Source: Alphaproteobacteria bacterium (GTDB taxonomy: Bacteria > Pseudomonadota > Alphaproteobacteria > GCA-2731375). From it: a stretch of 51,135 nucleotides of DNA. A model generated the notes under the pieces. The model searched no databases and had not been told where the DNA came from. It was given only the letters and a program-made list of their open reading frames with translations. Made by a program: the position numbers and the translations under genes. The first letter of the stretch is position 1; each line of letters opens with the position of its first letter. The stretch lies in assembly GCA_021776235.1 (NCBI GenBank), contig JAJFGG010000129.1, forward strand, positions 1 to 51,135, given 5' to 3'. Shown piece after piece: positions 3,966-10,288 of the stretch.

Positions 3966-5222
3966 GTGAACCGGTATTCGTTCGCCAGCCTCGTCCGCCA
4001 CGGGATAATGGGTCACCGGGGCTGGAAACCTGCATGGCGCGACCCGGAACCGAAAACCAACTATGACGCCGTTATTGTCGGCGGCGGCGGTCACGGTTTG
4101 GCCAGCGCCTATTACCTGGCCAAGAACCATGGTCTGAACAATGTCGCGGTGCTGGAGAAGGGCTGGCTGGGAGGCGGCAACACAGGCCGCAATACGACAA
4201 TCGTCCGCTCCAACTACCTGTTGGACAGCAATGCAAGGTTTTACGAACATGGCATGAAACTGTGGGAAGGGTTGAGCCGGGATCTGAACTTTAATGTGAT
4301 GTTTTCCCAGCGCGGGGTCATAAATCTGGCGCATTCGAAAGGACAATTGGAAGCCTTTCGCAGGCGCGGCAACGCCATGCGGCTGAACGGCATTGATGCG
4401 GAACTGTTGAACCGCGATGATGTCGCCGCCCTGGTGCCCGGGATGGATGTATCCGGCGATGTCCGCTTTCCGGTCGAGGGCGGTTTGCTGCAACCGCGCG
4501 GTGGGACCGCGCGCCACGATGCGGTGGCCTGGGGCTATGCCCGCGCGGCGGACCGGCGGGGTGTCGACATCATTCAAAACTGTGAAGTCACCGGCATTCG
4601 CCGGGACCACGCCGGCGTTTCCGGTGTGGAAACCAGCCGCGGCTTTATTGCCAGCAAACGGATCGGCCTTGCCGTGGCGGGCCATTCCACACAACTGGCG
4701 GCCATGGCCGGGGTGCGCCTGCCCATCGAATCCCATGTCTTACAGGCCATGGTCAGCGAGCCCGTCAAACCAGTGCTGGATACCGTTGTTACCTTTGGCG
4801 CGGGACATTTGTACGTCAGCCAGTCGGACAAAGGCGAATTGGTCATGGGCGGAGATATTGATGGCTATAACTCCTTTGCCCAGCGCGGCAATCTTCCGGT
4901 GATCGAGCATGTGGCGGCATGCCTATTGGCGCTGTTTCCGCAATTCAGCCGTCTGCGCATTCTGCGCACCTGGGGCGGCATAATGGATATGACCATGGAC
5001 GGCAGCCCGATCATCGGCACCACGCCGGTGCCCGGCCTGTTCCTGAACGGGGGCTGGTGTTACGGCGGCTTCAAGGCGACACCGGCATCCGGCTGGGTGT
5101 TCGCCCATACCATGGCGACCGGTCAACCGCATGCCTTGAATGCGGATCTGTGCCTGGATCGGTTTCACCGGGGCCGGGCACTGGATGAAAAGGGTGCCGG
5201 CCCCAAACCCTGGGCCCATTAG
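3966..5222 (+). CDS. soxB: Sarcosine oxidase, beta subunit
   Basis: The 418-residue beta subunit of heterotetrameric sarcosine oxidase, which oxidatively demethylates sarcosine to glycine. The protein opens with the family-specific stretch before the Rossmann motif VIVGGGGHGLASAYYLA (about residues 36-52), which binds FAD. The segment GGTARHDAVAWG places a His near residue 184, corresponding to the residue that covalently holds FMN in this family. The C-terminus has the GGWCYGGFKATPASGW motif. Start is a GTG at 3966. It is followed after 11 bases by the delta subunit. Gene order beta-delta-alpha-gamma matches the classic operon; the glyA and purU genes often nearby are absent here. Confidence 0.95.
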   Translation: MNRYSFASLVRHGIMGHRGWKPAWRDPEPKTNYDAVIVGGGGHGLASAYYLAKNHGLNNVAVLEKGWLGGGNTGRNTTIVRSNYLLDSNARFYEHGMKLWEGLSRDLNFNVMFSQRGVINLAHSKGQLEAFRRRGNAMRLNGIDAELLNRDDVAALVPGMDVSGDVRFPVEGGLLQPRGGTARHDAVAWGYARAADRRGVDIIQNCEVTGIRRDHAGVSGVETSRGFIASKRIGLAVAGHSTQLAAMAGVRLPIESHVLQAMVSEPVKPVLDTVVTFGAGHLYVSQSDKGELVMGGDIDGYNSFAQRGNLPVIEHVAACLLALFPQFSRLRILRTWGGIMDMTMDGSPIIGTTPVPGLFLNGGWCYGGFKATPASGWVFAHTMATGQPHALNADLCLDRFHRGRALDEKGAGPKPWAH

Positions 5223-5233
5223 GAAAACCTGAC

Positions 5234-5515
5234 ATGTTGTTGATCGATTGCCCCCATTGTGGCCCGCGCGCCCAGACGGAGTTCAGCTATGGCGGCGCCG
5301 CCAATGTTGCCCGGCCACCGGCGCCGGAAGAAACGGACGACGCCGCCTGGATCGAATACCTCTATCTGCGCGATAACGCCAAGGGTCAGCATGACGAACT
5401 GTGGCAGCATATCTTTGGCTGCCGCCGCTGGCTGCAGCTACGCCGGGATGTGATCAGCCACGAAATCATCAGTTGTTCCGAACTGCGACGGCCGCTGGCA
5501 GAGGACGGGCCGTAG
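5234..5515 (+). CDS. soxD: Sarcosine oxidase, delta subunit
   Basis: A 93-residue zinc-binding subunit of heterotetrameric sarcosine oxidase. The four expected zinc ligands are visible: Cys6 and Cys9 in DCPHCG, and His59 and Cys63 in WQHIFGCRRW. The surrounding IEYLYLRDNAKG segment is also typical of the family. It lies between the beta and alpha genes with two-base spacing to alpha, so translation is likely coupled. The subunit has no catalytic role of its own and stabilises the complex. Length and motifs are normal, and no oddity is seen. Confidence 0.95.
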   Translation: MLLIDCPHCGPRAQTEFSYGGAANVARPPAPEETDDAAWIEYLYLRDNAKGQHDELWQHIFGCRRWLQLRRDVISHEIISCSELRRPLAEDGP

Positions 5516-5517
5516 GC

Positions 5518-8388
5518 ATGGCTGACTTTCGCCTGCACAGCGGCGGCCTGATTGATCGGGACAGAAAGATTTCATTCACTTTCGATGGCCGTAGCTATCA
5601 GGGTTATCATGGCGATACCCTTGCCTCGGCCCTGTTGGCGAATGGGGTCCGCCTGGTGGGGCGCAGTTTCAAGTACCATCGCCCCAGGGGCATATACGGG
5701 CTTGGCGGCGAAGAACCCAACGCCCTGGTGCGGCTACGCCAGGGTGCCCGCGCCGAACCAAACATTCGTGCGACGCAGATCGAACTATACGAGGGTCTGG
5801 TCGCCCGCAGCCAAAACAACTGGCCGTCGTTGCGTTGGGACGCTGCCAGTGCCCTGGGCCTGGTTTCGCGATTTTTGCCGGCGGGATTTTATTACAAGAC
5901 CTTCATGTGGCCGAGGCGACTATGGCCCCATTACGAGAATTTTATCCGCCGCATGGCGGGTATGGGGCGCAGCCCGGAGGCACCGGACCCGGACCATTAC
6001 GAAAAATGCCATGGCCACTGCGATGTGCTGGTCATTGGCGGCGGCCCGGCCGGCTTGGCGGCGGCGCTTACCGCCGCGGAAGGTGGCGCCCAAGTCTGGC
6101 TGGCTGATGAAGGCGCGCAGCTTGGCGGCGGTTGCCTAAATGATGGTGATGCATCGGCAGCCCGCGATACCATTGCCGCCCTGGAAAGCCTGGACAACGT
6201 CACCTTGCTGCGGCGCACCAGCGTCTTTGGCAAGTATGACGATCATCTTTATGGCCTGGTGGAACGCACCGGTGATCATCTTGCCAGTCCCGACCTGGGC
6301 ATGCCGCGGCAACGCCTTTGGCATTTGCGGGCAGGGCGGGCCGTGCTGGCCAGCGGGGCCATAGAACGGCCCTTGGTTTTTGCCAACAACGACCGGCCCG
6401 GTGTCATGTTGACCTCGGCGGCCTTGGGTTATCTGCGGACCTACGCCGTACGGCCGGGTAGTCGCGCCGTCATCAACACCAATAATGACAGCGCCTATGG
6501 GGCGGCTGCCATCCTGGCGGCGGGCGGCATTGAGGTTGCGGCGATTGTCGATCATCGGCACATGAAGGAGCGCCGGGAAATACCAGGCGCCGAAATTCTC
6601 CACAACCACGCCATCATTGATACCCGCGGCAAGAAAGGATTGACCGGTGTCACTGTCGCCCAGCTGGATATAAATGGCGATGCGGTTCCCGGTTCAGAGC
6701 GGCAACTCGCCTGTGACCTGCTGTGCCTTTCCGGCGGCTTCACTCCCAGCGTACACCTTTATTCCCAGGCTGGCGGAAAGTTGGCCTTCCGCGAGGATAT
6801 TCAAAGCCTGGTGCCCAAATCCGAAGTACCCGGCATGACGGTCGTTGGCGCTGCCAACGGCGACTTTGGCGAGTCTGAATTCATCGCCGGCGGGGCGGCG
6901 ATGGACCGTCCCGTCTCGTTGCGCAAATTCCGGCGCAAGCAATTCATTGACCTGCAAAATGACGTGACGGCTGCGGATGTAGAGCTGGCGGCGCGGGAGG
7001 GATACCGTTCGGTCGAGCACGTGAAGCGCTACACCACCCTGGGCATGGGCACAGATCAGGGCAAGACCTCCAACCTGAACGGCATTGCGGTTCTGTCCGA
7101 CGCCCTGGACAGGCCGCCGGCCGAAGTGGGTGTTACCACTTATCGCCCGCCCTATACGCCGGTCACCATCGGCGCCCTGGCGGGACGCGATGTGGGTCCC
7201 TTCTTGGCCCCGGACCGGCGCACGCCCATGCAGGAATGCCATGAAAAAGCCGGCGCGGCCTTCGTGCCCGCGGGCCTTTGGCAGCGCCCGCATTATTATC
7301 CCCGGCCCGGTGAAACCATGACCGAAGCGGTCAACCGCGAGGTGCTGGCAGTGCGGCGGAATGTCGGCATCGTCGATGTCTCGACCCTGGGCCGCATCGA
7401 TCTGCATGGGCCGGACGTGGCCGAGTTCTTGAACCGCGTCTATATCAACGGTTTCAAGGCCCTGGCGGTGGGCATGTGCCGCTATGGTGTAATGCTGCGC
7501 GACGACGGTATGATATTTGATGACGGCACTGTCGCCCGCATGGCCGAGACGCATTTTATCATGACCACCACGACCGCCAACGCCGGCCCGGTCATGGCGC
7601 ATCTGGAATTTTATCTACAGGTGGTCTGGCCGGAGTTACGGGTCCACATGACTTCGATTACGGACCAATGGGCCGTGGCGGCGGTAGCGGGTCCTAGGTC
7701 GCGGGACCTACTGGACAGTCTGGACAGTGATATTGCATTCGCCAATCAGGCCATGCCCTTCATGGCCTGGCGTGGCGGCGCCATCGGCGGCATCCCGGCA
7801 CAGGTCTTCCGCATCAGTTTTTCCGGTGAACTGGCCTACGAAATCGCCGTTCCGGCAGACTACGGCCCCGCCATGTGGGAGATGTTGCTGGCCGCGGGCC
7901 AGGAGTTTGACGTCAACCCCTATGGAACCGAGGCGCTGACCACGTTGCGCACCGAAAAAGGCCATTTTGTCATGGGCCCGGAAGCGGACGGTCGTGCCAC
8001 CGCCGACGATATGGGTCTGGGTGCGATGTTGTCGTCCCGCAAGGAATTTGTCGGGCGGCGGTCTTTACGCCTGCCCGGCCTGGCGGGCGGGGACCGCTTG
8101 CACCTGGTTGGCCTGATGCCAGTTGACGGAAGGAGCCAAATTCCGCCGGGGGCGATATTGTTGGACAAGGAAATGGCAGGGCGGGCACCCGACAAGGCGG
8201 GCCACGTCACCACATCGGTGTTTTCCCCCAGCCTGGACAAACCAATCGCCCTGGCCATGGCGCGGAATGGCCGCCAACGTCTGGGCGCCCAGCTTTGGGC
8301 CCATTCGCCCCTGGACAATCGGATCGTCGAGGTGGTGATCACCGACCCGGTCTTCGTCGACCCTATGGGGGAGCGCCTTCGTGCCTGA
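5518..8388 (+). CDS. soxA: Sarcosine oxidase, alpha subunit
   Basis: The 956-residue alpha subunit. The N-terminal region has the 2Fe-2S-ferredoxin-like fold seen in this family (ISFTFDGRSYQGYHGDTLAS), followed by FKYHRPRGIYG. A dinucleotide-binding motif VLVIGGGPAGLAAALTAAEGG starts near residue 170. The C-terminal third is the aminomethyltransferase (GcvT-like) domain, which takes the methylene group from the demethylation to tetrahydrofolate; NREVLAVRRNVGIVDVSTLG marks its start. The ATG at 5518 sits two bases after the delta stop. The gene overlaps the start of gamma by eight bases. Together with beta, delta and gamma it should form the cytoplasmic complex yielding glycine, H2O2 and methylene-THF, or formaldehyde when folate is limiting. 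Confidence 0.95.
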   Translation: MADFRLHSGGLIDRDRKISFTFDGRSYQGYHGDTLASALLANGVRLVGRSFKYHRPRGIYGLGGEEPNALVRLRQGARAEPNIRATQIELYEGLVARSQNNWPSLRWDAASALGLVSRFLPAGFYYKTFMWPRRLWPHYENFIRRMAGMGRSPEAPDPDHYEKCHGHCDVLVIGGGPAGLAAALTAAEGGAQVWLADEGAQLGGGCLNDGDASAARDTIAALESLDNVTLLRRTSVFGKYDDHLYGLVERTGDHLASPDLGMPRQRLWHLRAGRAVLASGAIERPLVFANNDRPGVMLTSAALGYLRTYAVRPGSRAVINTNNDSAYGAAAILAAGGIEVAAIVDHRHMKERREIPGAEILHNHAIIDTRGKKGLTGVTVAQLDINGDAVPGSERQLACDLLCLSGGFTPSVHLYSQAGGKLAFREDIQSLVPKSEVPGMTVVGAANGDFGESEFIAGGAAMDRPVSLRKFRRKQFIDLQNDVTAADVELAAREGYRSVEHVKRYTTLGMGTDQGKTSNLNGIAVLSDALDRPPAEVGVTTYRPPYTPVTIGALAGRDVGPFLAPDRRTPMQECHEKAGAAFVPAGLWQRPHYYPRPGETMTEAVNREVLAVRRNVGIVDVSTLGRIDLHGPDVAEFLNRVYINGFKALAVGMCRYGVMLRDDGMIFDDGTVARMAETHFIMTTTTANAGPVMAHLEFYLQVVWPELRVHMTSITDQWAVAAVAGPRSRDLLDSLDSDIAFANQAMPFMAWRGGAIGGIPAQVFRISFSGELAYEIAVPADYGPAMWEMLLAAGQEFDVNPYGTEALTTLRTEKGHFVMGPEADGRATADDMGLGAMLSSRKEFVGRRSLRLPGLAGGDRLHLVGLMPVDGRSQIPPGAILLDKEMAGRAPDKAGHVTTSVFSPSLDKPIALAMARNGRQRLGAQLWAHSPLDNRIVEVVITDPVFVDPMGERLRA

Positions 8389-8920
8389 TCCGCTGACCCG
8401 TCAATCCGCCCTGGCCGCACGGTCGGGATCCGACGACTTGATCCAGGAGCGCACGGGTCTGTGGATCCAGCGCCTGTATGCCCCGGACCGGGAAGCGGAT
8501 TTCGGTGATAAGATCGGCCTCGATTTGCCCGGGCAGGCGAACCACGTCAGCCAGGACAAGGATCTCCATGCCCTGTGGGTCGCACCATGGGAATGGCTGT
8601 TGGTGAGTGAGGCCACAGCCAACCGGGACGGACTGGCCGCCCGGGTTGCCGCCAGCGGCGGTGCTTTAAGCGACCTCAGCCATGCCCGCATGGTCCTGCG
8701 CCTGGCGGCGGAGCCGGCGCGGGATATTCTGGCCAAAGGCTGCCCACTTGATTTACGCCCGGCCAGTTTCCCGCCGGGACATTGCGCCCAGAGCGTTCTG
8801 GCAAACGTCGGAATATTGCTGCACCATTTAGGCGATGGGGCGCACATGGATATCTATACAGCCCGCAGTTACGGCCGGTTTATTCACGCCTGGCTCAACG
8901 ACGCGGCGCCGCCGGCGTGA
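8381..8920 (+). CDS. soxG: Sarcosine oxidase, gamma subunit
   Basis: A 179-residue protein placed exactly where the gamma subunit of heterotetrameric sarcosine oxidase is expected. Its sequence fits the family, which has a folate-binding (GcvT/YgfZ-like) fold: WVAPWEWLLVS, LSDLSHARMVLRLAAEPARDILAKGCPLDL and the C-terminal YTARSYGRFIHAWL. The start is a GTG at 8381 that overlaps the alpha stop, which implies translational coupling. Gamma is the least conserved subunit, so context and the DLS.AR...L pattern carry the call. The next gene is on the other strand and converges after five bases. Confidence 0.9.
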   Translation: MPDPLTRQSALAARSGSDDLIQERTGLWIQRLYAPDREADFGDKIGLDLPGQANHVSQDKDLHALWVAPWEWLLVSEATANRDGLAARVAASGGALSDLSHARMVLRLAAEPARDILAKGCPLDLRPASFPPGHCAQSVLANVGILLHHLGDGAHMDIYTARSYGRFIHAWLNDAAPPA

Positions 8921-8925
8921 CGGTA

Positions 8926-9360
8926 TCATTCCTCGGGAATTGCAAAATGCTCCATGCCCGGCAGTTGCGGGAACCGCGGGATGCCGTCAGCGCTGGTATC
9001 GGCGGCATAATCGGCCATGTCGTCCGTGAAGATTCGCATCATCAGGTGCAGACCGGTCGGTTGATCCAGGCTGCCGGCGGTGATGGTGATGGTATCTGTA
9101 TTATCCCGGCGAAAGAAAAGGGTAGAGCTGCAATTAACGCAGAAGCCGCGCTCCACCTTTTCCGAACTGCGGTACCAGGTCAGCGCCCCGGCCTGATCCG
9201 TTATGGCCACATCCGCCCGGCGGGCACCGATGGCATGCCAGACGCTGCCCGTTATGCGCCGGCAGCTTTCACAATGGCATTCCACCACCTGCCGCACGGG
9301 CCCGGTAATCTCATACCGGACCCGGCCACAGTGGCATTTGCCCCGCAATTCAGCTGACAT
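8926..9360 (-). CDS. GFA-family (glutathione-dependent formaldehyde-activating-like) protein
   Basis: A 144-residue protein with the complete cysteine pattern of the GFA/CENP-V domain. It has GKCHCGRVRYEI (Cys9, Cys11), then ECHCESCRRITG (Cys28, Cys30, Cys33), and a later RGFCVNCSSTLFF. These cysteines bind zinc. The founding member was described as speeding S-hydroxymethylglutathione formation from formaldehyde and glutathione; most members are uncharacterised. It converges on the sarcosine oxidase operon, whose reaction can release formaldehyde, and is co-directional with the glutathione S-transferase gene immediately upstream, two bases away. A link to formaldehyde or glutathione chemistry is plausible but is inferred from context. 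Confidence 0.88.
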   Translation of the reverse strand: MSAELRGKCHCGRVRYEITGPVRQVVECHCESCRRITGSVWHAIGARRADVAITDQAGALTWYRSSEKVERGFCVNCSSTLFFRRDNTDTITITAGSLDQPTGLHLMMRIFTDDMADYAADTSADGIPRFPQLPGMEHFAIPEE

Positions 9361-9362
9361 CG

Positions 9363-10058
9363 CTATTCGGCCGCGGCGACGCCCTCGCCCAGCAAGGTTC
9401 CCACATAGAAACCGCGGTTCTTCAAATTAGCGAAAAACACATCCTCAAAGCTGGGCGCCACGGAACCTATGACGGCATCGTTTTGCAGCAAGGCATCCGA
9501 CCAGGCCTTTATCAGCGGATAGCCCTGCAAAATACCGGTCTGCACGAATTGTTCAATCAGGGCAAAGCGTTGCAGGAAAGGCGCGTAGGCCGCATCGACA
9601 AGGCATAATTCGGGGCCGTTAAAGTAGGGCCCGTCGTTACCCCGTTCCTTGGCGATAGCGTCTTCCAGTTTCTGTAGAAACTTTGGCGCCCCGGCCAATT
9701 TCTCCTCAAACTCTTCCCGGGTCTTGGTGTAGTAAATATTGATACCTTTGGAAAAGTCGGGCACGAAATCCGTCCAGGCCCGGTTGCGGGCCCGCTTGAA
9801 CGGATCCTCCGGGTGGCTTCTGGGCGGCACAACATCGTCCAGATATTCCGCGATGGCATTGGATTCAAACAGCGGATCCTCGTCCACCGCTAACACAGGC
9901 ACCTTGCCGTGGGGTGAAATTTTCAGGAACCAGTCAGGTTTGTCCGTCAAATCAATGTAGGTGGTCTCGAACTCGACCTTTTTCGCACGCAAAAGAATCA
10001 CGGCGCGCTGCACCCACGGTCAAGTAACCGAGCTGATCAGATGGTACTTGTTGGCCAT
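9363..10058 (-). CDS. Glutathione S-transferase with in-frame UGA at the active-site Cys (candidate selenoprotein)
   Basis: From an ATG at 10058, preceded by GGGGAG, the frame reads MANKYHLISSVT, then a TGA at 10020-10022, then PWVQRAVILLRAKKVEFE and a full GST. Related proteins have Cys-Pro-Trp at this spot, the thiol residue of omega/beta-like GSTs, so the UGA replaces exactly the catalytic-site Cys. Read through, the product has 231 residues. It includes the thioredoxin-fold glutathione site (PHGKVPVLAVDEDPLFESNAIAEYLD) and an alpha-helical C-domain. No other stop or frameshift is present, which argues against ordinary decay. A hairpin of bacterial SECIS type follows (9985-10008). Alternatives are a recent nonsense mutation, a sequencing error, or a start at the GTG after the UGA that drops the active site. 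Confidence 0.7.
9985..10008 (-). promoter_or_regulatory. Candidate bacterial SECIS hairpin
   Basis: Starting 12 bases after the UGA, GCGCGC pairs with GCGUGC (one G-U pair) around a 12-base loop that begins CGUGAUU. Known bacterial SECIS elements lie directly downstream of the UGA within the coding sequence and have a G in the first two bases of the apical loop about 16-37 bases from the UGA. Here that G is at position 19. A competing 5-bp hairpin with a three-base loop is also possible. This was assessed by eye without folding energies. Confidence 0.45.
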
Positions 10059-10288
10059 GTCAGGTGTCTCCCCAAGGGTTTCGGTTGTTGTCCAGATTTG
10101 ACAATAGAACCATGACCAAGGCCCGTCAAAGTTTTGCCGTCACGGCTATGCCGGTTTCTGGGCAAGTATCTCGGTCCCGTGGTCATGACCCTTCAGAGTG
10201 ATTTTGCCCAGGGGTCTGGTTTCAGACCGTCAGCGTTTGTCCGGTCGTGTCAAGTATCGTGTGTGCACTTGGTGTTCTGGCGATATTT

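Follow-up and report, generated by a model that had tools for sequence, protein, structure and literature searches.

A glutathione transferase gene with a conserved in-frame UGA, very probably read as selenocysteine, in an alphaproteobacterium

A minus-strand gene in a 51,135-nucleotide stretch of alphaproteobacterial DNA (contig JAJFGG010000129.1; herein the window) very probably encodes a glutathione transferase (GST) with selenocysteine (Sec) as its reactive residue, the UGA being decoded via SelA, SelD, and SelB together with a hairpin in the message. Sequence comparison bears out where the recoding falls and that it is conserved, as well as the machinery and the constraint on codons. Listings of GST-like selenoproteins go back to 2005, and as far as those listings go, the window gene is a further member of an already known kind. 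We assembled 43 TGA-containing sequences with their genomes, machinery, and a comparative view of the SECIS element, for a family that the accessible parts of the literature give just as rows of tables. The collection makes testable the question of what selenium gains a glutathione transferase.

Reading frame and codon 13 among relatives

The frame (10058-9363, minus strand) opens with an ATG, runs for 12 codons to a TGA at 10020-10022, and goes on for another 218 residues to a TAG. With the TGA read through, the product has 231 residues and an N terminus of MANKYHLISSVT-U-PWVQRAVILLRAKK... Both the N- and C-terminal GST domains score above their Pfam cut-offs (GST_N_2, 68.9 bits against 25; GST_C_2, 36.9 bits against 24.9), and the fold matches GSTs in Foldseek. 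The reading frame and the Pfam matches bear out the initial annotation, which had read the frame from the ATG at 10058 through the TGA into an intact GST and had seen no other damage: the TGA is the sole in-frame stop that interrupts the gene. Without recoding, the mechanical open reading frame (ORF) is 9363-10013 (minus strand; GTG start, 216 residues). It lacks the first strand (model residues 5-9) and residue 13, and ordinary gene calling, with its start at GTG 10013, would lose the reactive residue. The features of the gene are as follows.

9363 to 10058, minus strand: predicted selenocysteine GST coding sequence, 231 residues plus TAG (Pfam matches; TGA homologues in 42 of 80 loci)
10020 to 10022, minus strand: UGA codon 13, predicted to be read as selenocysteine (TGA in 42, TGC/TGT in 37, and uncovered in 1 of 80 loci)
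10068 to 10073, minus strand: GGGGAG, likely the ribosome-binding site, 9 nt upstream of the ATG (assigned by eye)

To find relatives, the species genome collection was scanned with six peptide patterns that all leave out the TGA position. This turned up 88 relatives, and codons were counted in the best 80. Codon 13 is TGA in 42 of these and TGC or TGT in 37; in the remaining locus, L072, the match starts after it. The L072 contig opens (positions 1-50) with letters that resemble a sequencing-adapter remnant and are joined to the GST just past the TGA position, and the codon is thereby lost. The TGA loci are 58 to 91% identical to the window GST and the 36 distant Cys loci 37 to 42%; L061 is the exception, being 64% identical yet carrying TGT. 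Homologues had been said to read Cys-Pro-Trp-Val-Gln-Arg. Cys does stand at the TGA position, but the 36 distant loci read CP[F/Y]VQR, and CPWVQR is found in L061 only.

In a quick tree built without column 13, a single 45-row group (SH-aLRT 99) unites the TGA rows with L061 and L072 and takes in records labeled Alpha- and Gammaproteobacteria; judged from these alignments, the split between TGA and Cys follows kinship. L061 (2231-2869) is a Cys (TGT) form that falls within the Sec group, and its genome carries a tRNA-Sec. The tree calls for two changes. Holding the Sec rows together was not rejected (p-AU 0.406; 52 of the 81 rows), and a clear Sec-to-Cys reversion was dropped for that reason; on these sequences L061 may be either a reversion inside the TGA group or an early branch. 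Among 20 relatives of the window genome, the TGA form occurs in nine of the ten from the genus, in both of the two others from the family, and in none of the eight from other families of the class. In the one member of the genus without it (G051, 84% complete), the match is partial, 39% identical, and lies close to the start of a contig. The window genome holds no close Cys copy of the GST, the next best protein match scoring 31.8 bits.

The sequence upstream of the TGA bears on the alternative that the UGA is a real stop, either with an N-truncated product made from GTG 10013 or as a regulatory stop with rare readthrough. Across codons 4-12, the 42 loci differ from the window by 158 silent and 48 residue-changing differences (of 378), a pattern that points to translation ahead of the TGA, with residues 4-12 conserved mainly by synonymous change. 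The 216-residue ORF does exist, and selenium supply could in principle make decoding of the UGA conditional, such that both products occur. Besides the conservation of residues 4-12, however, the truncated protein would be without strand 1 and residue 13, and the machinery and codon constraint described below fit Sec insertion; we regard a real stop as very unlikely.

The selenocysteine machinery

The initial annotation had made its reading depend on Sec machinery in the same genome, and this was recovered in part. Genes for SelA (583.5 bits), SelB (414.3 bits), and SelD (381.6 bits) all score above curated cut-offs, selA and selB adjoining on contig C166 and selD lying on contig C46; a gene for tRNA-Sec (selC) was not found in the window assembly. 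The selD gene (L018; C46:22266-23192) has an in-frame TGA of its own, a single one, in the motif GGGUGSK, and on its sequence is probably a second selenoprotein of this genome. A second SelD-like domain (L019; contig C25:131418-132335; 315.1 bits, above cut-off) lies in a 760-residue open frame that is perhaps a fusion.

A tRNA-Sec was sought in the window assembly with an Rfam model, a gene pattern, and a relative's gene as query, each time with a negative outcome. The Rfam model, for which 150 of 914 first-look candidates were scored, gave nine matches, two of them above cut-off; ARAGORN called eight of the nine as tRNA-Ser (four), Tyr, Cys, Phe, and Asp. A pattern that fits the tRNA-Sec of relatives (fit judged by eye) had no match in the assembly, and a relative's 96-base gene matched only over stretches of up to 22 bases. 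The arrangement described in the accessible part of PMC8124441, with selC nested in or beside selB, was not seen in the window genome. The neighbors of a relative's tRNA-Sec were set aside as a guide by synteny, their best G000 matches being only 67% and 54% identical, and a scan of four stretches around those matches found no tRNA.

Among the genomes with TGA homologues, 40 of 42 have a tRNA-Sec (42 of 44 across L030-L073), and ARAGORN called the genes of the four relatives checked as tRNA-SeC with anticodon TCA; 4 of the 36 genomes with distant Cys homologues have one. We infer that its absence from the window assembly, which is in 174 contigs, reflects a gap in the assembly.

A missing tRNA-Sec would suit a gene in decay, with the TGA as a nonsense mutation, or a TGA that arose as a fault of sequencing or assembly. 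Against this stand the same codon TGA in 42 loci of other genomes, a window gene that has no other stop, and residues that are conserved on both flanks of the TGA (protein alignment, 33 of 81 rows). Further stops in relatives, which the initial annotation had named as counting against its reading, are absent from the tblastn matches of 41 of the 42 TGA homologues; the one seen, in L045, lies near the C terminus, after residue 229 with the TGA read through. Decay or error is extremely improbable. A suppressor tRNA or a changed genetic code that puts some other amino acid at the UGA could likewise appeal to the missing tRNA-Sec, but is scarcely credible given that TGA ends 10 of the 18 mechanical ORFs picked in the window, that Cys is encoded by a non-TGA codon at position 13 in 37 loci, and that the genome has selA, selB, and a selD that itself contains a TGA.

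A hairpin within the coding sequence

Decoding of the UGA as Sec would call on an RNA element downstream, and the 6-bp stem that had been proposed at 10008-9985, with a G in the second loop position, does exist.

9985 to 10008, minus strand: SECIS-like element, with 5' arm 10008-10003, loop 10002-9991, and 3' arm 9990-9985 (family codon conservation)

The hairpin consists of GCGCGC, a 12-nt loop, and GCGTGC, with an energy of -7.4 kcal/mol; 11 bases separate the UGA from the stem and 17 separate it from the loop. The accompanying claim, that it fits the known layout of bacterial SECIS elements, holds for the position of the G, the stem, and the 17-nt spacing, but the 12-nt loop is too long and the energy is borderline. 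Taken singly, the hairpin is not distinguished from chance: among 20,000 random synonymous recodings, 41.8% contain a comparable hairpin (at least 6 bp of stem, no more than 12 nt of loop, and a G at loop position 1 or 2), and 18.8% still do when at least five G-C pairs are required. Local folding did not recover it: the minimum-energy structure of 9975-10030 lacks the hairpin and prefers other pairs (z = +0.79; 161 of 200 shuffles give a fold that is equally or more stable). The recodings and the local fold rule out the single-sequence hairpin as stand-alone evidence; in our reading of the sequences, it is the comparison across the family that speaks for a SECIS-like element.

For this comparison, 110 positions with a conserved residue among the 43 TGA sequences were ranked by codon conservation beyond background codon use. 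Codons 18, 20, 19, 17, and 24 rank 1, 2, 3, 6, and 7; codons 17-20 and 24 span the 5' arm, the start of the loop, and the 3' arm. Ranks 4 and 5 fall to codons 51 and 55, outside the hairpin, while codon 16, just outside it, ranks 109 and codon 25 ranks 83. The ranking differs among 27 rhizobial Cys homologues (106 positions), where codons 17, 18, and 19 rank 56, 34, and 95 and codon 16 ranks 4. Wobble positions in the 3' arm are as pairing needs: codon 23 ends in G in 43 of 43 sequences (13 of these are Met, which allows no choice) and codon 24 in a pyrimidine in 42 of 43.

In an alignment of 37 of the 43 sequences (L036, L039, L041, L047, L067, and L070 being left out as near copies), the six hairpin pairs form in 97.3% of 222 cells. 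No pair has changed on both sides, so covariation lends the hairpin no support, and in this GC-rich region arms slid by -2 or +2 still pair in 81.5% and 69.8% of cells, respectively. Val20, Arg24, and Ala25 are present in 43, 43, and 42 of the 43 TGA sequences and in 14, 1, and 2 of the 36 distant Cys sequences; from the sequences, the RNA element may be what fixes these residues of the protein. L061 retains the stem, and replacement of Val20 by Ala has cost it the GU of the loop. Two TGA members, L069 (3535-3597) and L071 (5028-5090), break the common stem and have instead a GGGC/GCCC stem with a 7-nt loop, CGUGAUU.

It is possible, if on balance doubtful, that these elements make up a long-loop (here 12 nt) variant class among bacterial SECIS elements, in which a fixed CGUGAU loop start over a GC stem is the main recognition feature. 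In such a class the RNA would have dictated residues in the region of the first helix (Val20, Arg24, Ala25), and a few lineages (L069 and L071) would have kept the loop start with another 3' arm.

With Sec as the preferred reading of the UGA, SelA would convert Ser-tRNA-Sec to Sec-tRNA-Sec with selenophosphate from SelD, and SelB would carry the product to the UGA at 10020-10022 by binding the hairpin at 10008-9985 within the coding sequence. We infer this insertion in the cell, as we do the reaction and substrate of the enzyme.

Likely chemistry, neighbors, and comparison with known systems

An AlphaFold model of the GST (33 sequences; pLDDT 91.3, pTM 0.88) places residue 13 directly before a helix at 14-25. 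The Sec would thus sit where helix 1 begins, inside the glutathione site, in a motif (UPWV) without a second Cys. By sequence, thiol-dependent reductase 1 (4ags) is the top PDB match, and plant GSTs, omega, and DHAR proteins come after it; in Foldseek, plant tau-class GSTs lead, with DHAR at rank 22 and omega at rank 30. Omega, DHAR, and thiol-dependent-reductase enzymes are one-residue, glutaredoxin-like thiol transferases or deglutathionylating reductases. Because the window protein has a single reactive residue, by analogy its most likely reaction is glutaredoxin-like thiol transfer or deglutathionylation, and the Sec enzyme would act as a one-residue transferase or reductase of this type.

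Downstream of the GST lies a gene of the GFA family.

8926 to 9360, minus strand: GFA-family gene (PF04828; 78.2 bits, Pfam cut-off 24.3), starting 2 nt after the GST stop

The GFA gene is possibly an operon partner of the GST in close relatives only, since it stands beside the GST in 9 of the best 80 loci, all close relatives of the window. With that distribution it cannot explain the GST family, and it was rejected as a conserved functional partner; across 43 loci, no neighbor cluster occurs in more than 8. A sarcosine oxidase operon (3966-8920, plus strand) runs convergent to the GFA gene and consists of soxB (714.7 bits), a soxD-like ORF (111.4 bits, against a cut-off of 116.5), a soxA-like gene, and soxG. 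Sarcosine oxidase makes formaldehyde, so a tie of the GST-GFA locus to glutathione-dependent formaldehyde handling is possible.

The initial annotation had pointed to GST-like selenoproteins from marine metagenomes, and the accessible parts of the literature agree: PMC1088965 has four from the Sargasso Sea, under COG0625, and PMC2398784 has 12 from Global Ocean Sampling data. PMC9312934 and PMC13188914 each enter the GST selenoprotein family with a representative (PPR62222.1 and MEK9676863.1 are those published), the latter with the Pfam model PF13409, and in its accessible part PMC13188914 describes the functions of such selenoprotein families as largely uncharacterized. Terms for the family did not occur in PMC12013277, and a search for a characterized Sec-GST, which covered few subscription papers, gave only table rows and one-line mentions.

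Like the listed proteins (COG0625/PF13409), the members of the window clade would be Sec-containing GSTs of marine bacteria, and PF13409 is the best Pfam match here. Compared with the published table rows, the clade is likely identical with the listed family. With the Cys GSTs of the omega, DHAR, lambda, and thiol-dependent-reductase groups, the window protein shares the fold and a reactive residue that precedes helix 1 and has Pro after it; it differs in its predicted Sec for Cys, and the Foldseek and sequence ranks point to different classes. The bacterial SECIS model in the accessible part of PMC13188914 has a stem of at least 4 bp, a loop of 3-9 nt with a G within its first two positions and then a U, and an energy of -7.5 kcal/mol or lower; some SECIS elements, by the same account, lie outside it. 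Only 1 of 44 sequences (43 TGA plus L061) combines a 3-9 nt loop with that energy in a simple scan without bulges, and a strict rule could miss genes such as this one. The window hairpin is like the published model in its stem, its early loop G followed by U, and the 17 nt from UGA to loop, and differs from it in a loop of 12 nt rather than 3-9 and an energy of -7.4 rather than -7.5 kcal/mol or lower.
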